In this document: piece by piece, positions 291-30,454 of the stretch | Numbering within the stretch: position 1 is the first letter of the stretch | Layout: every line of letters begins with the position of its first letter | Source: a virus | DNA length: 30,454 nucleotides | Virus record (IMG/VR): IMGVR_UViG_3300020156_000070 | Location: 1 to 30,454 of that record | Strand: one strand, 5' to 3' | The notes under the pieces: model-generated | The model's database searches: none | Seen by the model: only the letters and a program-made list of their open reading frames with translations | What the model was told of the DNA's origin: nothing | Program-made: the position numbers and the translations under genes

Positions 291-661
291 GCACCGCGCC
301 CACCGGCCGATGCCGCTCCGGCCGGCACCCGCAAGCACCCGGTAGCGGCCGGTGCGCCCCCTGCGGTGTGGAGAACGCCGCACGGTCGAAGGAGTTCTGG
401 CAGCGGGTGCACGGCTCGGTGGCGCCGATGCTCGATGCCTTCCAGAACGCGCTGTGCGACCAGGACTGCGCCTGGCAGTACGACCCCACCGACCGCGACG
501 AACTGCGGGACGCCGGTGTGCAACGGCCGGAAGAGCTGCCGCGCATCCAGGCGGCAATCGCCCGGTGCCAGGCCTGCCCCATCCTGCTCGAGTGCCGGTT
601 CTTCGGGCGGGAGCACGATCTGCTCGGCGTGTTCGGCGGCGAATATCTCGGAGTGGCTTGA
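287..661 (+). CDS. WhiB-like iron-sulfur regulator, without the usual basic tail
   Basis: This 124-aa protein has the WhiB signature: C57 or C61, then C94-x2-C97-x5-C103 (ARCQACPILLECR), then the turn GVFGG at 114-118 in place of the usual G[VI]WGG. WhiB proteins bind a [4Fe-4S] cluster through four Cys and act with the housekeeping sigma factor to control transcription in actinobacteria; several actinophages carry copies. The GTG start at 287 overlaps the upstream stop (GTGA). Two oddities are visible. There is an extra N-terminal Cys pair (C23-x2-C26). The protein stops six residues after GVFGG, so the basic DNA-contacting tail typical of the family is missing. It may work through protein contacts, for example on sigma or as an antagonist of a host WhiB. 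The next promoter's -35 box overlaps its stop codon. Confidence 0.85.
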   Translation: MSTAPTGRCRSGRHPQAPGSGRCAPCGVENAARSKEFWQRVHGSVAPMLDAFQNALCDQDCAWQYDPTDRDELRDAGVQRPEELPRIQAAIARCQACPILLECRFFGREHDLLGVFGGEYLGVA

Positions 662-687
662 CAAGGTATGACAAGGCATGACATGAT
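658..687 (+). promoter_or_regulatory. Promoter with 10-bp tandem operator repeats (copy 1)
   Basis: A perfect -35 hexamer TTGACA (658-663) is followed, after an 18-bp spacer, by CATGAT (682-687, 4/6 match to the -10 consensus). The spacer is made of two and a half copies of a 10-bp unit, TGACAAGGTA, TGACAAGGCA, TGACA, so one helical turn separates each unit. The same 26 bases recur at 19639-19664 ahead of another rightward gene. This suggests a promoter under a shared regulator that binds direct repeats. It would transcribe the genes from 718 to 1711. Confidence 0.7.
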
Positions 688-1768: not shown

Positions 1769-2098
1769 TCAGTAGACCTCGACGAGACCGGCGTACCAGC
1801 CGGGTGACACCGCTCCGCCGATGAGCACCAAGTGTGCGTCGTAGAATCCGCGCGCCAGCACGTGCCCGCCGTCACCCACCTTGATCGCCACCGTGGTCGG
1901 CCCGACCCACGTGGCCGCGATCCAGTCCGCGTCGTCCCGGTCCACCGGTGGGGTACCGCCCTGCTCGGTGAAACAGACCTTCGGTGTGAACGATCCCTCG
2001 AGGTTTTCGATGGGCGAGCCCGCCCACGTCTGGGCTGTGATCTCCCAGGCGAGTTCGTCGGTGGCGAACGCCGGAATCCGGTGCTTCATCGGGTGCAT
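1769..2098 (-). CDS. Small tail- or appendage-region protein, 109 aa
   Basis: The start is ATG 2098, preceded by a clear GGGAGGGA site 9 bases upstream, rather than an upstream GTG in the same frame. The sequence is rich in beta-forming and aromatic residues (ADWIAATWVGPTTVAIKVG, SPGWYAGLVEVY) with one Cys. This reads as one compact beta domain, as in the small structural proteins that end many actinophage tail operons. It is the last gene of the leftward late transcript and lies 2 bases after the DUF4082-like gene. I infer a minor virion role from position; no family is recognised with certainty. Confidence 0.6.
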   Translation of the reverse strand: MHPMKHRIPAFATDELAWEITAQTWAGSPIENLEGSFTPKVCFTEQGGTPPVDRDDADWIAATWVGPTTVAIKVGDGGHVLARGFYDAHLVLIGGAVSPGWYAGLVEVY

Positions 2099-2100
2099 GG

Positions 2101-2754
2101 TCAATCCCTCCCCGCGGACGCCCACCGCGGGTTCCGCTGCCGGAGATCGTAGCGGCCAGGGTGGATCTGGCTGCCGAACCGGGGGCGGCGCGGGCGCACC
2201 TGGACCCGCCAGTTCGACGGGTCGGGGTTCGGCTCCTCATCGCCATCGCTGAGCACGACGTCCACCGGGTAGCCACCGCCGTTAAAGAAGCCGGTGGGGT
2301 AGGTGAGCGCGGAGCCGTAGGCGAACGTTCCCTGTCCGCCCTCGACACTGGCATCCGGGGCGCTGAGTGGACCGCTGACGATCCCGCCCACACCGGCCCC
2401 TGTCGCCCAGTACCCGCCCACGGCGGTGAAGCCAGCGGGGAAGTGGGCGACCACCTTGAACGAGCCGGGAGCGAGCGGTACAGGCGCGGGCAGTTCGGCG
2501 CGATGCCAGCCGGTACCGGACAGCTCGAACGCGACCGGAAGCATGATCTGCTCCCCGGTGCCCGGCCCGGTGACCTCGAAGACGGCCGCGTGCACGGGAC
2601 CGCCGATGGACGCAGCGCCACGCCAGAAGCGCAGCGCCACGAGATCGACCGGCTCGAGCACGTCGAATCGGGTGCCCAGCGAGACGGGGGAGTCCGCATC
2701 CGCGGTCAGCGGGAACGGACTCCCCTCGTCAGGCCAGATCGAGAATTCGGCCAC
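2101..2754 (-). CDS. DUF4082-like beta-sandwich protein, probable tail appendage
   Basis: This 217-aa protein resembles DUF4082 domains: an opening IWP motif, then G(T/V)RF with a hydrophobic strand (PVDLVALRFWRGA), a conserved GTGW (HRAEL follows) and the Pro-Gly strand APGSFKVVAHF. DUF4082 is a putative carbohydrate-binding beta-sandwich found in secreted bacterial proteins and actinophage tail or appendage proteins. The last 40 residues are basic and Pro/Arg-rich. The start is a GTG three bases after the holin-like gene's stop, without a convincing ribosome site, so translation is probably coupled. Binding of cell-wall or other glycans is an inference from the domain. Confidence 0.65.
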   Translation of the reverse strand: MAEFSIWPDEGSPFPLTADADSPVSLGTRFDVLEPVDLVALRFWRGAASIGGPVHAAVFEVTGPGTGEQIMLPVAFELSGTGWHRAELPAPVPLAPGSFKVVAHFPAGFTAVGGYWATGAGVGGIVSGPLSAPDASVEGGQGTFAYGSALTYPTGFFNGGGYPVDVVLSDGDEEPNPDPSNWRVQVRPRRPRFGSQIHPGRYDLRQRNPRWASAGRD

Positions 2755-2757
2755 GGG

Positions 2758-3129
2758 TCAGGGGTGCTGCTCGCCGACCCGATGGCCGGTCACGGCGAGT
2801 TTCGGACTGTTGAAGCCGACCACACCGACGCCGGCGAGCGCGGCCACCATCACCTGCAGCCACTCGGTGATGGTGATCCCGCCGTCGAGCAGCGCGCCGC
2901 CACCGGTCACGAGCAGCGTCGCGCCCGCGGTCAGGGAGTAGACGACCAGCTTCGAGTACTTGCCGACCGTGCCGGTGAGGTTCGGCACGATGACTACGCC
3001 GACCGCCGAGAGCACCAGCAGCAGGCCGTTGACCGCTTCGAGCGCACTGATGTGCTCGTCGCCGGTGAGCGCAGCCAGCAGCCACGCGGCCAGCGTCGCC
3101 GCCAGCGCGCTGAAGAACTTCCCGTACAT
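2758..3129 (-). CDS. Holin-like membrane protein
   Basis: This 123-aa protein has three to four hydrophobic segments at about residues 5-21 (FSALAATLAAWLLAALT), 31-50 (LEAVNGLLLVLSAVGVVIVP), 60-80 and 88-105, then a short polar tail. It lies directly downstream of the endolysin gene in the same operon, the usual place for an actinophage holin, which permeabilises the membrane so that the endolysin reaches the wall. The start ATG 3129 has AAAGGAA about 8 bases upstream. Two other membrane proteins lie on the other side of the endolysin, so which one is the true holin is open. Confidence 0.7.
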   Translation of the reverse strand: MYGKFFSALAATLAAWLLAALTGDEHISALEAVNGLLLVLSAVGVVIVPNLTGTVGKYSKLVVYSLTAGATLLVTGGGALLDGGITITEWLQVMVAALAGVGVVGFNSPKLAVTGHRVGEQHP

Positions 3130-3170
3130 GCCTGTGTTCCTTTCGTTGCCCCCGGTGGATGAAGGGTAGG

Positions 3171-4550
3171 TCAGAGGGTGACGCGGAAGCCGAACCCAGC
3201 GTGGTGCTGGGCACCGTCGATGGCGTAAGCGACCTCCACGGTCAGCACGCCGGTGGGGATGGCGAAGCTGTAGGGCTTGGCCGCCGGGATGGTCTCCGTG
3301 CCCTTGATGGTGACCTGCTCCCCTCCGCCCTTGATCCCCTTGATGTGGGTCAACTGGATGTCCTCGTACCCGACGCCGATCACGCCGAAGTACATGCCGG
3401 ACGGAACGACGAACGTGCGGGAGGTGAACTCGCCTTCGGTGGCGAACAGGTCGGCCATTTCGGTCTCCAGATCTCTTGCGAGCGGTTTGGGTTCAGGGAC
3501 GCCGGGGGTACCGCCCCCGCCACCGGCAGTGCCGAGGTTCCAGGCGCTGGTGTCGTCGCACGCCGGGCTGGCCACGACCGACAGGTGCAGGTGGCTCGTG
3601 TGCGGATTCACCCCGTGGTAAGGCTTCCAGCCCTGCGCGGGGTTCCAGATCCGGCGATCCCAGATGATGTACTTGATCCGCCAGTCCCGCAGGCGCGCCA
3701 GCTGACCGGCGAGCCAGTGGCAGTCGAGACCGCCCTCCGGGTCGTGGGTGAAGTCCCGGGCGGTCACGATTCCCGGGCCGTACCACGGGTTGTGATCGCT
3801 GTTGCGATTCTGGTGACTGGTGTCACCGATCGAGCCGTCGCTCCGCTTGTCGCGGTTCGGCGCCATCGCGTTGAGCTGGTCAAGCAGCTTGTTGAGCGAT
3901 TTGGCCACGCGCCATGCCATGGGCGTTCCCTTCCGTGCGGTGATGTCGATGGACACGCGGTCCCGGTCGATGTTGCGCGGCATACCGTAGGCGTCCACGA
4001 CCCCCGGCAGGATCGCCTCATCCGTGTACTGGTGTCCGATGTGGAATATCGATGGCACGCGGGAGTAGTTCGCCACGAGTGGCTTGACCGGGAACCCCCA
4101 CTCGTTGACCCGCATCGCTTTCATGAACGATTCGTTCGAGTAGGTGATCGGGTCGTAGTCGTTCCACTGCATCACCTGGTGGATGTACCGGCCGGTCGCG
4201 CTCGCCAGCGCCGCGCCGGTCATGTCGTTGGTGAAGCCCCATCGGCCTGCCGTGGTCGGCTCGAGGTCGATCATCGGCTTGATGTCGTGCGCGTCGGCCT
4301 GCGCCAGCGCGGCCATGAACTCCTCGGCCTGCTTTTGGGCGATCACGTTGCGGATGAAGCCGTACCCGCCGATCTTGAAACCGGCGTCGCGCAGGATCGG
4401 CACGGCGGACAGGTCGATCGGCCGGTCCGGGTCCGCGTCGTAGACCTTCACCCACACGTAGCCGCCGGTGACCGCGGCACGCAGCGCGGCCAGCTGGTCG
4501 ACCCGGTAGCGCTGCCAGTGCGCAACGTCGATTCCCTCGCCAGTGATCAT
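3171..4550 (-). CDS. Endolysin: GH25-type muramidase plus LAS-type peptidase
   Basis: The 459-aa lysin starts at ATG 4550, behind a GGAGG site; a longer frame from 4604 overlaps a hairpin and is less likely. Residues 1-205 look like a GH25 muramidase (GIDVAHWQ with D8; MIDLEP with D95 and E97 as the acid pair), which cuts the glycan strand. Residues 207-330 form a peptidase of the M15/LAS type common in actinophage lysins: SDH with H253, ARDFTHD with D266, and SHLHLS with H322 as zinc ligands or catalytic residues. A Gly/Pro linker (343-355) leads to a C-terminal beta-rich domain of about 100 residues that I do not recognise; wall binding is a guess. No LysB-type esterase is visible in the window. 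Confidence 0.88.
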   Translation of the reverse strand: MITGEGIDVAHWQRYRVDQLAALRAAVTGGYVWVKVYDADPDRPIDLSAVPILRDAGFKIGGYGFIRNVIAQKQAEEFMAALAQADAHDIKPMIDLEPTTAGRWGFTNDMTGAALASATGRYIHQVMQWNDYDPITYSNESFMKAMRVNEWGFPVKPLVANYSRVPSIFHIGHQYTDEAILPGVVDAYGMPRNIDRDRVSIDITARKGTPMAWRVAKSLNKLLDQLNAMAPNRDKRSDGSIGDTSHQNRNSDHNPWYGPGIVTARDFTHDPEGGLDCHWLAGQLARLRDWRIKYIIWDRRIWNPAQGWKPYHGVNPHTSHLHLSVVASPACDDTSAWNLGTAGGGGGTPGVPEPKPLARDLETEMADLFATEGEFTSRTFVVPSGMYFGVIGVGYEDIQLTHIKGIKGGGEQVTIKGTETIPAAKPYSFAIPTGVLTVEVAYAIDGAQHHAGFGFRVTL

Positions 4551-4909: not shown

Positions 4910-5629
4910 CTACGGTAGGCAGTTCAGCGCGCTGGTGGGCGTGTCCACCTGCGTCGGCGCCTGGTCGTAGATGGTACGCATGACGCAGCCTTCTTCGGTG
5001 GAAACGGGATACGGACCGGTGACGATGCCACGGCCCGGCTCTCCGTCTACCCCGTCCTTGCCGTTGACGCCGTCCTTCCCCTGGCACTGCTGCGGAGTGC
5101 TCAGGCACGGCGGGCTCTGGCCGTCCTCCGGCACCGGAATCTGCAGCACGACGTCGCGGATGATCCGGTCGTAGTCGATGGTCGGGGTCTCGCCGTCCTT
5201 GCCGGGCGCCGGCGCGGGGATCTTCGCCTGGACCTCCCGGACGATCCGGTCATAGTCGACAGCCGGGGTCTCGCCCGCCGGTCCGCGCGGCAGCAGGTCC
5301 GGGTTCTCCCGCAGGGTGTCCTCGATCAGCTTCCGGACCTCGGCGTCCGACCGGCGTGGCGCGGGCACCTCCACGGTGCGCTGTTCGATGACCGTCTTCA
5401 CCTCGGCCGCCTTCTGGCAGGTAGCCGGGTCCGGCGCCACGGTGGGGTTCGAACAATCCGCGATCGTGCGGTCCGCGAGATCGACGGCCACCACCTCGTT
5501 GGTATCTGCGCGCTTCTCTTCCCGATCTGCTTCGGCACCGAGCGAATAGGACGCGGCTGCCACGAACAGCACGGCGACCGCGTATCCGGCGGACCGGACT
5601 TGCTTGTTCGTGCGCGCGTTCCTGATCAT
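4910..5629 (-). CDS. Membrane-anchored collagen-like repeat protein
   Basis: This 239-aa protein starts at ATG 5629 inside the upstream stop (ATGA). A basic N-terminus is followed by one transmembrane segment (residues 12-30, YAVAVLFVAAASYSLGA), so most of the protein should lie outside the membrane. Two adjacent 27-residue repeats occupy 116-142 and 143-169; each has GETPxxDYDRI followed by a valine-rich strand and Pro-rich end. Residues 184-200 are collagen-like Gly-x-y (GKDGVNGKDGVDGEPGR). Six Cys (59, 71, 175, 182, 215, 237) could form disulfides outside the cell. The location in the lysis cluster suggests a wall-spanning or surface role, but no family function is known to me. Confidence 0.75.
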   Translation of the reverse strand: MIRNARTNKQVRSAGYAVAVLFVAAASYSLGAEADREEKRADTNEVVAVDLADRTIADCSNPTVAPDPATCQKAAEVKTVIEQRTVEVPAPRRSDAEVRKLIEDTLRENPDLLPRGPAGETPAVDYDRIVREVQAKIPAPAPGKDGETPTIDYDRIIRDVVLQIPVPEDGQSPPCLSTPQQCQGKDGVNGKDGVDGEPGRGIVTGPYPVSTEEGCVMRTIYDQAPTQVDTPTSALNCLP

Positions 5630-5865
5630 GCCGGTTTCTCCAGATCCGAGGACTTCGGTGGCTGCGGGATCGGATCGTGCTCCAGCCCGTTCCGTGCCGC
5701 AAGCTGCGTCATACCATAGCCCCATTTGAGCAGGTCAGCGACGTAAGCACGAGCCTCGTCACGCTCCGCAGGCGCTCGCCGATCCTTCTTGTCCCGGGTG
5801 CCCAGATACGTGAACAGCGCTACCACCACTCCGGACAGGCTCGCTGCGATCGCTTCCCAGTTCAT
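5626..5865 (-). CDS. Single-pass membrane protein, 79 aa (lysis cluster)
   Basis: ATG 5865 overlaps the upstream stop (ATGA) and the gene's own stop overlaps the next start in the same way. There is one hydrophobic segment near the N-terminus (residues 5-22, AIAASLSGVVVALFTYLG), followed at once by a strongly charged stretch (RDKKDRRAPAERDEA) and a Pro-rich polar tail. Positive-inside reasoning puts the C-terminus in the cytoplasm. Proteins with this plan accompany holins in many actinophages and are sometimes called holin-like or antiholin-like. That role is inferred from topology and neighbours. Confidence 0.65.
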   Translation of the reverse strand: MNWEAIAASLSGVVVALFTYLGTRDKKDRRAPAERDEARAYVADLLKWGYGMTQLAARNGLEHDPIPQPPKSSDLEKPA

Positions 5866-6245
5866 CGGTGCCCCCGATACATCGCAGCCACCAGGAAGTG
5901 TGTGCCCGCGAGTAGCACGAAAACGACCGTGGTGGTGAGGTTTCCCGGTGGCCGGTTCTGCAAGGCGCCCAGCAGTGCCGCGCTGGCGAAGACAGTGCAG
6001 CTGCCCGCACACAGCGCGTGGCCGATCTGCTGCCGGTTACGAGCCGCGGCGGTGAACAGCAGCCCCGCGCCAGCCATCCCGAAGACGACCGGCCACAGCA
6101 CGCTGAGATTGGCGATCCAGGAGACCCGGCCCGCCGGCACGATGGGGTCTCCCTGGATGAGCCACACGAGCATGAGCACCAGCTGCCCGAACGCTAGCAG
6201 CACGGACAGCGTGCGCCGCGGGTGCCGGTCGTTCCGATCGCTCAC
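5862..6245 (-). CDS. Four-helix membrane protein (lysis cluster)
   Basis: The GTG start at 6245 has a strong GGAAGGGG site upstream. The 127-aa product has four hydrophobic segments at about residues 13-31 (SVLLAFGQLVLMLVWLI), 42-66, 77-95 and 103-121, with a charged N-terminus (MSDRNDRHPRR). It is the first of three consecutive membrane genes coupled by ATGA overlaps, just after the tail genes. The position and topology fit a second holin-type or lysis-regulator protein. An unrelated membrane role is equally possible on the sequence alone. Confidence 0.65.
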   Translation of the reverse strand: MSDRNDRHPRRTLSVLLAFGQLVLMLVWLIQGDPIVPAGRVSWIANLSVLWPVVFGMAGAGLLFTAAARNRQQIGHALCAGSCTVFASAALLGALQNRPPGNLTTTVVFVLLAGTHFLVAAMYRGHR

Positions 6246-18263: not shown

Positions 18264-19499
18264 TCAGGCTGCGGTCAGGTCGGCCGAGACGAAAAAGTCC
18301 GGCCGGTTGACCGCGAGCGCGAGCCGCTCCTCGGCGCGCAGCAGCACCTTGTTCTCCTCGGCAAACGTGCCGTGCTGCTCGAAGGTCCGCACCTCGACGG
18401 AGCGGCGGTCGAACAGCGTGGCGCCGAGCTGGTAGTTGCCGACCAGCGCGGTGCCCTGAGCGATGGAGTTGGTGCGCACGATCGGCAGGCCCCACACGTA
18501 CTGGATCGGCGCCTGCGTGATCGCACCGGCGTCGAGCTGACCGCCGGCGGTGCCACCCTGGTCGACCCGGTGGGTCATCATGTTCCAGAAGTCGATCGGG
18601 TTCATGGCCACGCCATCGGCGAAGCCGTCCACGACCTCGATCTTGGCGATGGACTGGCCGATGGTCAGCGCCATGTCGGTGAAGAACGCCTGCTCCTGCA
18701 CGTCGGTGTAGGAGAGGATGCCCTTGAGGTTCGGAGTGGTGCCGTTGCCGGAGAGGATCTGCGCTTCCTCGCGGAACTTCACCATGTACGGCAGGCGGCC
18801 GTTGATGTAGCCCATCAGGGTGGCCGCGTCCTCGACGATCTGCGTGGTGACCGGCAGGGTCACGGCGATGACCTGGACAGGCGCGTTGTCCGGGTCGAAC
18901 TGGATGGTCGCCTGGGGCTTGGCCGCGCCCTCGGCGACGGTCGCCGCGCCACCCTCGGTGGTGGTGACGTTCTTCTCGCGGATGTACGGAATGGCCGAGA
19001 GGCCGGTCTGCTGGACCCCGATCAGGTCCCGGATGAACAGCCGGCGGCGCCGGGTGTCCACGAGGTAGGGCTGTCCGACCGGCAGCAGCAGGCCGGAGCC
19101 GTTGGCGTCGCCCTCGGCGACCAGCGCGCGCAGTTCGTGGCGGAACTCGCCGGAGCGGATGCCGCCGTCCTTCACCCACTGCTGGTACCGCTCGGACTCG
19201 ACCACCTGGGCGCCCGCGGACCGCAGTTCGGCACCGTCGCCGCCGATCGCCGGGATGGCGCCTTCCGGGACACGCGGCACGCCGCGCAGGGCCTCGGGCG
19301 CCTTCGCCTTCGAGCGCAACGAGAGGTGGACGTCGATGTCCTCCATCTCGGCGAGGAACTCGGCCTTGCCGCGCTTGAACTCGTCGGTGTCCCGGCCCTT
19401 CTGGACCAGTTCCGTCCACTCGCTGCGCATTTCGGCCGCGCGCTCGCGCAGTTCTTCCTCGCCGGCGTCGCGGCGCCATTCGATCGTCGTCTGGGGCAT
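18264..19499 (-). CDS. HK97-family major capsid protein
   Basis: The 411-aa protein starts at ATG 19499 with AGGAG 8 bases upstream. Residues 1-60 form a charged coiled coil (GEEELRERAAEMRSEWTEL), the delta or scaffold domain expected to be removed by the prohead protease, followed by a linker to about residue 100. The rest follows the HK97 capsid pattern: GSGLLLPVGQPYL near the N-arm, the E-loop region (KNVTTTEGGAATVAEGAAKP), the spine-helix region, and late strands (LFDRRSVEVRTFEQHG, LALAVNRPDFFVSA). The phage head is an icosahedron of this protein. A rightward accessory gene separates it from its protease, which is unusual. Confidence 0.93.
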   Translation of the reverse strand: MPQTTIEWRRDAGEEELRERAAEMRSEWTELVQKGRDTDEFKRGKAEFLAEMEDIDVHLSLRSKAKAPEALRGVPRVPEGAIPAIGGDGAELRSAGAQVVESERYQQWVKDGGIRSGEFRHELRALVAEGDANGSGLLLPVGQPYLVDTRRRRLFIRDLIGVQQTGLSAIPYIREKNVTTTEGGAATVAEGAAKPQATIQFDPDNAPVQVIAVTLPVTTQIVEDAATLMGYINGRLPYMVKFREEAQILSGNGTTPNLKGILSYTDVQEQAFFTDMALTIGQSIAKIEVVDGFADGVAMNPIDFWNMMTHRVDQGGTAGGQLDAGAITQAPIQYVWGLPIVRTNSIAQGTALVGNYQLGATLFDRRSVEVRTFEQHGTFAEENKVLLRAEERLALAVNRPDFFVSADLTAA

Positions 19500-19600
19500 G
19501 TGCCCGCTCCTGTTCGTTCTGAGCATGGTCGATGGACACGCGCCCCGGTGGTCACAAGCGCCCGTTCACCCGGTGGCCGTCTGCCGCGAGTGTAGAAGAT

Positions 19601-19623
19601 CAGCCAGGCGGACGCGCCAACGC
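19601..19623. repeat. Direct repeat, left flank of the 300-bp accessory cassette
   Basis: This 23-bp segment matches 19901-19923 with 20 of 23 positions (ending GACGCGCCAACGC in both), exactly 300 bp apart; all three differences are transitions. Read leftward it encodes ALARPPG-stop, a relic of the protease C-terminus ALARLSG-stop found in the other copy. It lies between the capsid gene and the rightward accessory gene. Confidence 0.7.
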
Positions 19624-19638
19624 GACTCGGACTAACTG

Positions 19639-19668
19639 TTGACAAGGTATGACAAGGCATGACACACT
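19639..19668 (+). promoter_or_regulatory. Promoter with 10-bp tandem operator repeats (copy 2)
   Basis: TTGACA (19639-19644) and the following tandem TGACAAGG-type repeats are identical over 26 bases to 658-683. A weak -10 match (CACACT, 19663-19668) lies 18 bp downstream. Transcription would then begin at or within a few bases of the ATG at 19675, giving a leaderless or nearly leaderless mRNA, a common form in actinobacteria. It drives only the gene 19675-19899, which points against all its neighbours. Confidence 0.7.
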
Positions 19669-19674
19669 CGGTCT

Positions 19675-19899
19675 ATGAGCGAAAACGCCCCCCGAAACGC
19701 CGTCCTGAGCTTCGGTACTGAGCGCGGTAAGCGGATGACCGAAGAGGAAGCAGAGGCACTGCTCAAGAGCCAGGGATTCCACTTCATCCGGTCCCGTATC
19801 ATCACTCACCGTAACCGGCCAGCAGAAACGGTCATCGCCCAGTGGGAATCCGCTGATTACAGCCGGCGTGCCCGCCTGCGGGTGACCTATTCGATCTAG
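19675..19899 (+). CDS. Lone rightward accessory gene (moron-like), 74 aa
   Basis: This is the only rightward gene inside a 27-kb leftward operon. It has its own promoter (TTGACA at 19639) but no ribosome site, so it is probably leaderless. The protein is a mixed basic/acidic alpha-beta product: a helix (MTEEEAEALLKSQGFHFI), a loop and basic strands (RARLRVTYSI). I do not recognise a family. Its stop codon abuts the protease stop with no gap. It is flanked by direct repeats 300 bp apart, suggesting that it was inserted between the protease and capsid genes. Independent promoters and inverted orientation are classic for genes expressed from a prophage, for example in exclusion or host fitness. 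Confidence 0.7.
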   Translation: MSENAPRNAVLSFGTERGKRMTEEEAEALLKSQGFHFIRSRIITHRNRPAETVIAQWESADYSRRARLRVTYSI

Positions 19900-21534
19900 T
19901 CAGCCGGACAGACGCGCCAACGCAGCGAGCACGGCCTCATCGTCGATGTCGTCCGCGGGCGCGGGCTGTTCGGCGGACCGGACCGCGAGCGAGCGCTTCT
20001 CCCCCTCGGCCTTGGCGTAGAAGTAGTACTCGCCGCTGTCGAGCGGTGCGTCCACCATGCCGAGCAGGTAGGACAGCTCCCACAGGCTCGAGGCTGCGTT
20101 CTGGAAGAACCGGCGCGCGGCCACCACGTCGGCACCATCGAGCGACTCGGACAGGTCGGCAAGCTTGGTGTGCACGTCGGCGAGCACGGCCATCGGGTCG
20201 ACGTCGGTCTGTTCGCCGACCGCCCGGAACTCGAATGCCGCACCGGTGCGGGTTTCAGCGGGCGCCTTGCAGGCGTCGAGCGCGTCCGCGAGCGACAGCT
20301 TCCCGGTGGCGAAGCCGGTCAGCAGCTCCTGCGCGCGGGTCCCGGACAGCTCGGCGCCGCCGGGCTGCCGCGAGCGGATCGCGTTGACCGCGGTGCCCGG
20401 CACGCTGCCGTTGAGCACGACGGAGAATTCGTCGACCTCGGCCTCGGTGATCTGAGTGGTGTCGCGCAGTTCGGGGTCCGGGCGGGACTTGCCGCGCAGG
20501 AACGCGAAGCTGAACTCCTTCATCGTGCCGGAGCGGAGCTGCGCATACGCCTGCTTGGCGCGCGGCACGGCGTCGAAGTCGTCGAGTTCCACGTCGATGT
20601 CGAGCCCGTCCGCGCCATCGGTGTAGCTGACCACGCGGCCGATGGGGTCGTTCCAGTCGTGGCCCCACACCACCGGCGGCAGCTTGTCGCGCAGGCTGGC
20701 GCTGAACACACCGGGCGCCCACGATGTGCCGTAGCTGTCGCGCACCCCGTAGTTCAGTGCTCGCGCGGTGAAGCCGGGCGTCTTTCCCTCGCCGGCCTCG
20801 CGGAATTCGGTGATCTGCACGGGCATGGCCCGGGTCTCGATCTGCTTGCCCATGTGCTGCGCCTCTCGCGTCGCGGGGTCGATGTCATCGACCCGGTTGG
20901 TGGTGTTCCAGGGCTCGCCGAACGAGCACTTGCAGTTCGGGTGGACCTGCCCTGGGTAGCCGATGCGCGGGCGCACCAGCGCGTTGAAGTTACGGCCGTG
21001 CGCTTCCCGGCACCCGTGCTCGCACGCCCCCTGCTCGCCGTGCCAGCCGAACAGCACTTCACCGTCGTCGTCCGGATCGACGTCCTCGATCTCGGCGGCG
21101 AGCACCTCGGCCGCTGCCGCGCGCTGCTCCTGCGCGGCGATATGGGCGTCGAAGAGCTGGTCTTCCCGGTCGTGTGCCGCACGCATGGTGTCCGCGTCCC
21201 CGGTGGCGTTCGCCTCGGCGAGCCGGACCGTGGCGGTCACGAGATAGGCGGCTTGGTAGCCCGCGGCCGCCGTGCTGTCGTTAGCGCGCACCCGGTCCGC
21301 CGGCGTGTCCGCGTCCACCGCGGGCAGGAAGGTGCCGGCGGTGTTCTCGATCCAGTCGAACCAACCGCGTTCGGTGAAGACCGGTGCGACCGCGCCCGCC
21401 ACCAGCCCGGGGAGCTCGCCGATCAGGTCGACGATTACCGCGGCCGACTCACCTTCGAGCAGCGCGACGGCCACCGCGGCAATGACTTCCTCGGTGGCCT
21501 CATCCTCGACGGGCGGAGTGGCGGGCTCGGTCAT
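19900..21534 (-). CDS. MuF-like minor head protein fused to HK97-type prohead protease
   Basis: This 544-aa protein starts at ATG 21534 with the upstream stop just before it. The N-terminal 220 residues look like a MuF-type minor head protein: helices, then a Cys/His cluster with CEHGC (171, 175) and the family closing motif HPNCKC (198-203). From about residue 237 it is an S78-type prohead protease: strands, then GHD (H292), EFSFAF (S342) and DEF (E369) as the expected His-Ser-Glu active site. It should trim the capsid delta domain during maturation. A helical C-terminal tail of about 150 residues follows. Such fusions are known in actinophages. The stop codon touches the rightward accessory gene. 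Confidence 0.88.
   Translation of the reverse strand: MTEPATPPVEDEATEEVIAAVAVALLEGESAAVIVDLIGELPGLVAGAVAPVFTERGWFDWIENTAGTFLPAVDADTPADRVRANDSTAAAGYQAAYLVTATVRLAEANATGDADTMRAAHDREDQLFDAHIAAQEQRAAAAEVLAAEIEDVDPDDDGEVLFGWHGEQGACEHGCREAHGRNFNALVRPRIGYPGQVHPNCKCSFGEPWNTTNRVDDIDPATREAQHMGKQIETRAMPVQITEFREAGEGKTPGFTARALNYGVRDSYGTSWAPGVFSASLRDKLPPVVWGHDWNDPIGRVVSYTDGADGLDIDVELDDFDAVPRAKQAYAQLRSGTMKEFSFAFLRGKSRPDPELRDTTQITEAEVDEFSVVLNGSVPGTAVNAIRSRQPGGAELSGTRAQELLTGFATGKLSLADALDACKAPAETRTGAAFEFRAVGEQTDVDPMAVLADVHTKLADLSESLDGADVVAARRFFQNAASSLWELSYLLGMVDAPLDSGEYYFYAKAEGEKRSLAVRSAEQPAPADDIDDEAVLAALARLSG
19901..19923. repeat. Direct repeat, right flank of the 300-bp accessory cassette
   Basis: Partner of 19601-19623, 20/23 identical. 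This copy is the real 3' end of the MuF-protease gene (leftward ALARLSG-stop). The pair suggests an insertion or recombination event at the end of the protease gene that kept its C-terminus intact. Confidence 0.7.
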
Positions 21535-21536
21535 CG

Positions 21537-21758
21537 CTACCGTCCCGCGTCGACTGCCGTGCGCACGAACGCGTCCTTCGCCTCGAGCAGCTTGCGCAGT
21601 CCGACCGTCAGTTCCGGTCCGTCCGGCAGTGCGGCCACCATCTCGTACGCCAGTTCGTAGCACGGTGCGCTGACCCGCTGCAGGTGATCGGGCAGGTGGT
21701 CGAACTCGAAGAAGCGCAGCAGATGCTGCGTACCGGGGTGCCTGCCTTCGGCGCCCAT
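21537..21758 (-). CDS. Acb2/Tad1 hairpin-like small protein (candidate cyclic-nucleotide sponge)
   Basis: The 73-aa protein starts at ATG 21758, sharing a base with the upstream stop. Its pattern, an aromatic segment (LLRFFEFDHLPDHLQ) then two helices joined by a Pro-Asp/Gly turn (CYELAYEMVAALPDGPELTV, GLRKLLEAKDAFVRTAV), resembles phage proteins carrying the Acb2/Tad1 hairpin domain, in which LAxxI-x4-P-x2-RE-x4-ALxxLE-x2-V-x2-A recurs. Acb2 and Tad1 sequester cyclic nucleotides and block CBASS or Thoeris defence. The link here is by remembered sequence pattern only; a structural role is possible because the gene lies between portal and protease genes. Residues that bind nucleotide cannot be judged. 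Confidence 0.5.
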   Translation of the reverse strand: MGAEGRHPGTQHLLRFFEFDHLPDHLQRVSAPCYELAYEMVAALPDGPELTVGLRKLLEAKDAFVRTAVDAGR

Positions 21759-28776: not shown

Positions 28777-28812
28777 GCGTACGGCCCCCTCTCCCCCGGA
28801 GGGGCCGTACGC
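28777..28812. terminator. GC-rich hairpin upstream of the leftward operon
   Basis: GCGTACGGCCCC (28777-28788) and GGGGCCGTACGC (28801-28812) form a perfect 12-bp stem with a 12-base loop. No U-tract follows on either strand, so it could be a T-less actinobacterial terminator or a structural or operator element. It lies between the repeat array and the first leftward gene. Confidence 0.5.
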
Positions 28813-28826
28813 GCGCGCGAGGGCGA

Positions 28827-29097
28827 GGTTGTCCAGTGGTTGTCAATGATCTTGTTAGGTTGTCCGTCGCAGGTCAGGGCGGTTGTCCGAAAAACAGGCC
28901 TCTGGTTGTCCGGGAGGTTGTCAATGATCTTGTTAGGTTGTCCGTGCCTGGTCAGGGCGTTTCCGATATGTCCGTTTTGTCCGGTACAACCCCCCTGAAG
29001 ATCCACATCGGTTGTCTGAGCTGTGACCAGCAGAAACAGGGTTGTCCCAAGATCTTTTACTGGCCAGTAGACAACCAGATCAAGATCCCGGACAACC
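28827..29097. repeat. GGTTGTCC iteron-like array (candidate origin or operator region)
   Basis: Copies of GGTTGTC[CAT] occur in the same direction at 28827, 28838, 28858, 28881, 28904, 28916, 28936, 29010 and 29040, and inverted copies (GACAACC) at 29070 and 29091. Spacings in the first seven are 11, 20, 23, 23, 12 and 20 bp, so the sites fall close to one face of the helix. A 77-78-bp unit (from 28827) is repeated in tandem (from 28904), including an AT-rich ATGATCTTGTTA between sites. The stretch is clearly less GC-rich than the genes around it and has no supported ORF. It lies next to a replicative helicase gene. Confidence 0.75.
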
Positions 29098-29140
29098 GGC
29101 TGCCGACGCAGGCCCCTCTGCATGACCATGCACTCTCGGT

Positions 29141-29264: not shown

Positions 29265-30454
29265 CTACTCGCGCTGGTCTTCGGGCACCCAGATGGAGCG
29301 CCCCGTCTTCCCGCTGCTGCCCTCCGGCACGATGGCGCCGGCGGCAACGAGCGTGTCCCATGCCCGCCGGATGGACTGGTCCGAGAGCTTGCGCTCGAAG
29401 AAGGTGGCCGCTTCCGCACGCGACCGCCCGGCACTGCCGAACGGGGCGTTGTAGGCCATGTAGCGCGCCAGGTCCGGCACCAGCTTGAGCCCCGGCCCGT
29501 GGACCTCCGCCAGTGCGCCGATGTCCGGTGGCTGCTCGCTGTCCCACTGCTCGGCCAGCCGCGCCATGACCGGCCCGGTGCCGTCGACCAAGACCCCGCT
29601 GTCCGTACCGCCGATCATGGCGAAGGACAGCTCGATCCCCTTGATCTCCTCGTCGTCCTTCTGCTTGACCACGTCCACGGTGACGCCGAGCCCGCCCTTG
29701 TCGCGGTCCGGACGGGTGAACGTCAGCTCGGTGTCGATGGCCGCGGTCACCGAGCTCGAGCCGCGTCCGCGGGCGCCGGAGTGCCCCGTGTGGTGGACCA
29801 GCAGCACGCACGCGCCCGACGCCACCTTGATCCGCTCTAGTACCTGCATGACGCGCCCCATCTCGGCGGCCGAGTTCTCCTCGACGCCGATGGTGTTGCG
29901 TGCCTGCGTGTCGAAGATGACCAGGGCAAACTGCCGTTTGGCCGCGAGCGCAATCAGGCTCTCGCGCTCGAGCTCACCGAGCTGGACCGGCCGCGGCAGG
30001 AAGTACACGCCGGTCATCCGCCGCTGGTGGTAGGCCTCCCAGGCGGTCACGCGCTTGCTCATGCCCTGCGCACCCTCGGCCACCACGTAGAGCACGTCGC
30101 CGCGGCTGGCGCGCTTCCCGGCCCACGCCGACCCCTCACCGATGGCCGCGGCGAGGCCGAGCACGCCAAAGGACTTGAACGACCCGGACGCGCCGGTGAT
30201 CCGGGCTGTCGAGTTACGCACGAGTATCTTGTCCACCAGGTACTCCGGCGCGGGCAGCTGCTGCAGCTGCCAGGGAGAGAGCAGCTCGGCCTCGAGCCCT
30301 TCGGCCGCCTGCTGCGCGGCCGCCCCGCCGGCGGCGAGCGAGGCAGCCATCTGCGGATCACCGTCGATCAGGTCCTCGAGCGATTCGAAGATCCACGGCC
30401 GGCGCAGCCCCTCGGTGACCCCGCGCCCGGCCGCCTTCCGGTCGTTCGCGTCGA
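29265..30454 (-). CDS. RepA/DnaB-like replicative helicase, 5' partial
   Basis: The frame is open to the window edge, so the true start lies further right; an ATG at 30348-30350 is internal. The stop is at 29265. The Walker A motif is GASGSFKS, as in RepA-type AAA_25 helicases. Walker B is VIFDT, and a VHHTG segment followed by ARGRGSSS matches the sensor region of this family. The upstream sequence, DANDRKAAGRG, resembles the end of a Toprim primase domain, so the full protein may be a primase-helicase. A C-terminal winged-helix-like end (RAEAATFFERKLSDQSIRRA) fits family practice. It unwinds phage DNA at replication forks. Confidence 0.8.
   Translation of the reverse strand, partial: DANDRKAAGRGVTEGLRRPWIFESLEDLIDGDPQMAASLAAGGAAAQQAAEGLEAELLSPWQLQQLPAPEYLVDKILVRNSTARITGASGSFKSFGVLGLAAAIGEGSAWAGKRASRGDVLYVVAEGAQGMSKRVTAWEAYHQRRMTGVYFLPRPVQLGELERESLIALAAKRQFALVIFDTQARNTIGVEENSAAEMGRVMQVLERIKVASGACVLLVHHTGHSGARGRGSSSVTAAIDTELTFTRPDRDKGGLGVTVDVVKQKDDEEIKGIELSFAMIGGTDSGVLVDGTGPVMARLAEQWDSEQPPDIGALAEVHGPGLKLVPDLARYMAYNAPFGSAGRSRAEAATFFERKLSDQSIRRAWDTLVAAGAIVPEGSSGKTGRSIWVPEDQRE

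Follow-up and report, generated by a model that had tools for sequence, protein, structure and literature searches.

The stretch of viral DNA that we analysed (30,454 nucleotides, referred to here as the window) carries the late operon of a tailed actinobacterial phage; the operon runs leftward through terminase, portal, protease, capsid and tail genes. Profile matches assign the minus-strand open reading frame (ORF) at 19900..21663 to a prohead protease, with a MuF-like N-terminal part joined to a Peptidase_S78 part, and the minus-strand frame at 18264..19526 to an HK97-type major capsid protein, whose conserved start, MPQTT, lies at 19499. (The MuF-like and protease parts, which form one ORF in the window at 19900-21663, are two overlapping ORFs in one related head module, L003, at 2089-3761.) Between the protease and the capsid genes, and running opposite to both of them, lies a small plus-strand gene (19675..19899) for a protein of 74 amino acids. 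It abuts the protease stop with zero gap—its last base is 19899, and the protease stop anticodon begins with the next base, 19900—as a preliminary description of this DNA had noticed.

That gene and its promoter are bracketed by a direct repeat of 24 bp, one copy at 19600-19623 (TCAGCCAGGCGGACGCGCCAACGC) and the other at 19900-19923 (TCAGCCGGACAGACGCGCCAACGC). The two copies are identical at 21 of 24 positions (~88%), they differ by three transitions and by nothing else, and their starts are spaced exactly 300 bp apart. The preliminary description had reported a repeat of 23 bp (20/23) at a distance of 300 bp; the repeat and its spacing stand, and the extent becomes 24 bp because the base at 19600 is common to both copies. 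On the minus strand, the right copy spells ALARLSG-stop, with which the protease gene finishes, and the left copy spells ALARPPG-stop. Could the likeness be an accident? When both strands of the window were scanned with the protease end, the second-best match was 17/24, which upholds the earlier view of the left copy as a relic of that end. Among simulated neighbourhoods of 600 nt (Markov-1), none of 20,000 reaches 20/24 and one reaches 19, and among some 40 candidate genes in the window, no other gene end has a second copy above the background of 18-19/24. No strong hairpin was found in either repeat copy. The right copy keeps a hydrophobic residue (L) that matches the protease end of L003 (LAALGTLG) and is V in a second relative, L024 (NALAKVG), and the left copy deviates there; from this, we take the right copy (19900..19923, minus strand) to be the working protease end and the left copy (19600..19623, minus strand) to be the decayed, presumably non-coding, old one.

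Repeats of other kinds occur elsewhere in the window. The region 28790-29130 holds many GACAACC/GGTTGTC units at low GC, among them two 47-bp repeats (at 28838 and 28916) that are 91% identical to each other, beside a primase/helicase-like gene (29265-30350). This array looks like an iteron replication origin, from which it follows that the phage may replicate like a plasmid. A tandem 81-bp direct repeat, 74% identical, lies at 5117-5278 inside a leftward ORF (4910-5725).

What, then, does the protease–capsid junction look like in relatives? These were sought with the capsid and the protease in viral contigs, and six head modules were obtained: L003, L004, L008, L009, L020 and L024 (L005 is a duplicate of L008). 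A search of genome contigs with two capsid alignments as queries found no closer kin. In L020, there is no insert: the protease stop lies at 6083 and the capsid ATG at 6183, and the protease end is present in a single copy, in a relative that is distant from the window (protein identity of 52% for the protease and 54% for the capsid). Nor does any gene separate the protease from the capsid in the more distant Gordonia phages Reyja and Ghobes or in Corynebacterium phage IME1320_01. In the other five head modules (L003, L004, L008, L009 and L024), this junction is occupied, directly after the protease, by a glycosyltransferase of about 316-353 residues; that of L009 belongs to phrog_7162, a family in the PHROGs class moron/auxiliary. 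Neither the 74-residue gene nor a second protease end occurs in any of the head-module relatives. The preliminary description had proposed looking for one repeat copy in relatives that lack the cassette, and a single copy is what L020 has.

With L020 and the named phages free of an insert, and with the relatives devoid of both the small gene and a second protease end, it is most likely that the plain protease–capsid junction is ancestral and that the window's cassette and the relatives' glycosyltransferase are separate additions. It is possible that the junction acts as a hot spot for insertions. Since the site holds a glycosyltransferase in five relatives, the immediate ancestor of the window might have had one too, in which case the cassette may have replaced it. 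As for the left copy being the remnant of a lost glycosyltransferase end, we rejected this idea, since the shared letters come to TGGCGC only.

The left copy also stands in a telling place with respect to the capsid gene. A hexamer, TACACT (19589..19594, minus strand), at -96 from the capsid ATG appears to be a conserved -10 box, in that each of seven related loci (7/7) has one TANNNT at -89 to -109 from the ATG (chance, 2% per random 30 nt). A putative capsid leader element, GTGAACGGGCGCTTGTGACCACC (19547..19569, minus strand; GTGAACGGGCGCTTGTGAC in the window), recurs in five loci—the window, L004, L008, L009 and L020—at 69-71 nt before the ATG. Most of the loci (among the window, L003, L004, L008, L009, L020 and L024) also have a GTGAMCGGGCTG-TGTGAC element in the leader of the capsid gene. 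The stop codon of the preceding gene ends at -100 from the capsid ATG in L020, L004 and L008, and that of the left copy ends at -101. In other words, the left copy's stop has the offset of the L020 protease stop and lies next to the conserved -10, and, judged by position, the left copy is the old protease end in its old place, its stop marking the ancestral one at 101 nt from the capsid ATG. That the left copy might instead belong to a conserved capsid leader had been raised at the outset as a way to refute the relic; it does not, since it sits just upstream of the -10 and the leader, where the preceding stop sits in L020, L004 and L008.

The -10 and the leader element, being conserved in relatives, make it seem that the capsid has its own promoter and that the upstream part of this promoter overlaps the end of the gene before it. 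Within the left copy, we saw no convincing -35 box, and for that reason we can only infer that the copy has a part in the capsid promoter. One might imagine that no relic is needed at all and that a capsid promoter region simply favours sequence resembling a protease end, by chance or by functional convergence; the left copy does, after all, overlap the zone just upstream of the capsid -10. That zone varies among relatives, however, and the match of 21/24 is in register with the stop codon, at a level attained in none of the 20,000 simulations, which leaves convergence very improbable.

The product of the gene within the repeats matches the PHROG_38040 profile (E 4.8e-5) over residues 4-74 of 74, which is to say at full length. 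It is 37% identical to gp132 of Rhodococcus phage E3, with the alignment running from the first ATG on, and 28% identical to Jflix2 gp50, Madraxi gp54 and REQ1 gp21, also of Rhodococcus phages. Searching by exact peptides found no relatives of the protein in viral contigs, and phages and plasmids gave marginal matches only. The homologues of Jflix2, Madraxi and REQ1 come immediately after the integrase gene, and the E3 homologue has a helix-turn-helix (HTH) gene and a helicase gene nearby. The window's product is thus a remote homologue of a family that, in those three phages, has an integrase-side setting, whereas the window's copy sits reversed in a late head operon. The GC content of the cassette is 58%, against 68% for the window, which places it among the lowest 0.7% of 276-nt windows.

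The gene has what looks like a strong promoter of its own, TTGACA-N18-CACACT (19639-19668, plus strand), which ends 6 nt before the ATG, so that the mRNA is probably leaderless. The first 26 bp of this promoter (19639-19664) carry TGACAAGG units in 10-bp phase and recur exactly at 658-683, within a second predicted plus-strand promoter (TTGACA-N18-CATGAT, 658..687) upstream of a 97-residue ORF (718-1011). These two, sharing 26 bp exactly, are the only strong promoters of the type in the window. (The ORF at 718-1011 adjoins a weak WhiB-like match at 473-640.) The exact 26-bp core is absent from the viral contigs searched; a 23-bp version of it occurs in a high-GC contig, L121 (GC 65%), in an integrase/excisionase region, between an excisionase-like gene and a divergent gene. 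The shortened core also matched many low-GC contigs, and the matches in L141 and L142 were discarded as low-GC simple repeats. We read the cassette promoter as an early phage promoter, possibly one with a regulator that would bind its phased units, and the cassette gene as a probable early gene, from a PHROG_38040-type family, that was carried over together with its promoter.

This combination—a single extra gene with its own predicted promoter and atypical base composition, lying between genes that are adjacent in relatives—makes the cassette appear moron-like. The preliminary description had called it a moron outright. The label fits with respect to the promoter, as read from sequence, and to the absence of the gene between the same neighbors in relatives, but it fits less well in that no terminator was found (no hairpin with a T-run at 19880-19940), no integrase domain was detected in the record or in its head-module relatives and the promoter core is common to another phage gene.

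How could a gene come to sit here without destroying what lay on either side? The best explanation, and one that we consider probable, is an insertion at the protease 3' end with a duplication of its last 24 bp, which spared the capsid promoter region. In the ancestor, the protease stop codon would have lain some 100 nt upstream of the capsid ATG and the capsid -10 box a few bases beyond that stop, and the last protease codons would have doubled as the upstream part of the capsid promoter region. (We read this ancestral junction from position and not from aligned DNA, the nearest insert-free relative having about 52-54% protein identity.) The extra gene, reversed and furnished with a strong phage promoter, would have gone in precisely where the protease stop codon gives way to the capsid promoter, and from then on the final 24 bp of the protease gene would have been present twice. 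Such an insertion would be tolerated only if the protease end and the capsid promoter region both survived; the protease stop and the capsid promoter region share the same few dozen bases, and doubling the shared 24 bp would preserve both. The right copy would now end the protease, and the left copy, no longer coding, would have drifted by three transitions while still standing before the capsid -10 box. The duplication could have accompanied the insertion through illegitimate or short-homology recombination, through break repair or through a template switch that re-entered 24 nt upstream, and the sparing of the capsid promoter would be the selective reason for it.

For this explanation speak the repeat and its positions, the insert-free relative, the conserved -10 and leader, the homologues of the gene, the low GC of the cassette, the location of those homologues beside integrases and the two promoters that share 26 bp. 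Against a duplication on insertion counts the glycosyltransferase, which entered the same junction without leaving a duplicate in any of the relatives; the missing -35 box, the distance of the nearest insert-free relative and the chance that a glycosyltransferase was replaced weigh against the explanation too. The earlier idea that the cassette entered at the protease 3' end and preserved its function is retained, with the refinement that one copy (the right) is intact, one (the left) is a relic and a single copy stands in the insert-free L020.

Known phages offer two instructive precedents. In the cluster C1 mycobacteriophage LRRHood, 29-bp repeats border a 1.35-kb insertion (genes 43-46), and relatives have just one copy of the repeat; in the cluster I mycobacteriophage Island3, the end of gene 67 is duplicated next to gene 68 (Pope et al. 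2011, PMC3029335). As in these phages, the window's insert lies between short direct repeats, one of which is the end of a gene, and the repeat is single where the insert is lacking (in our case, in L020, at about 52-54% protein identity). LRRHood shares with the window extra DNA between short direct repeats at a gene's 3' end and one copy in insert-free relatives; it differs in that four genes, including an immunity repressor, were gained, whereas the window has one reverse gene with its own promoter at a protease–capsid junction, between diverged copies. Island3 shares a small extra gene (about 85 residues there) beside a duplicated neighbor end (about 50 bp there), but its duplicate lies inside the coding sequence of the new gene, and that of the window appears to be a non-coding relic beyond the new gene's promoter.

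The two mycobacteriophage cases were read as recombination with a partner or as deletion (PMC3029335), and that parallel favors the main rival to duplication on insertion: a crossover between related phages. A partner phage in which the reverse gene already stood behind the protease would have recombined, out of register, with a phage that had the plain junction, the join falling 24 bp short of the protease stop of the recipient; on this view, the donor's end would survive as the right copy and the recipient's own as the left. The three transitions between the copies might be just what homologues from related phages would show. But the crossover merely shifts the first insertion into another phage, and searches of IMG/VR, INPHARED and PLSDB, at the sensitivity used, turned up no such donor. 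We regard it as conceivable, if somewhat doubtful. Insertion with duplication, for its part, needs no donor that already had the arrangement.

Might the 300-bp unit instead move on its own account? A discrete unit, direct repeats and a clean gene-end target are what one would expect of a mobile cassette, shifted either by a trans-acting recombinase that works on the 24-bp site or as a nonautonomous transposon with a 24-bp target duplication. Yet there is no second such cassette in the window and no relative of it in the viral contigs, inverted repeats between its ends do not exceed 7 bp, the copies are just 88% identical and no integrase domain of either main family, nor a resolvase domain, was found in the record (a viral contig, which may be incomplete) or in the head-module relatives. 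A site-specific mobile cassette is therefore unlikely, and even with the transposon version included, we allow a mobile unit only a small chance. The proposal that the cassette brought its own copy of the protease end as an att-like site found no support: no recombinase is encoded, no inverted repeats over 7 bp link the ends and the glycosyltransferase insertions left no duplicate.

Three more specific identities were considered and rejected. MPME1 and MPME2 are ultra-small mycobacteriophage mobile elements, of which MPME1 has 439 bp, terminal inverted repeats and a 6-bp addition. The window's cassette resembles them as a very small one-gene insertion in an actinobacteriophage; its end regions have a longest inverted match of 7 bp, its unit is 300 bp and there is no 6-bp addition. 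A transposon with a target-site duplication fails for want of both a transposase and terminal inverted repeats. An integron gene cassette (with a folded attC site and a tyrosine integrase) fails because the repeat forms no strong hairpin and the record holds no integrase.

The repeat-flanked cassette is genuine, and what it teaches is modest: a known mode of phage gene gain, now in another phage group. What is added here is the reverse gene, together with a conserved capsid promoter, in view of which the duplication makes plausible sense. The entry of single genes into packed, cotranscribed phage operons usually leaves no scar; here, there is one, and it can be set against insert-free relatives and the capsid promoter. 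It suggests a rule, namely that viable insertions would duplicate a gene end wherever that end overlaps the promoter of the next gene. A far broader version, which we think improbable as it stands, would make gene ends that double as the next promoter region preferred landing sites, where inserts would survive only with the shared end duplicated; the protease–capsid junction would be a hot spot (a glycosyltransferase in some lineages and the 74-residue gene in another), and decayed end copies might be readable as scars of gene gain across phage genomes.
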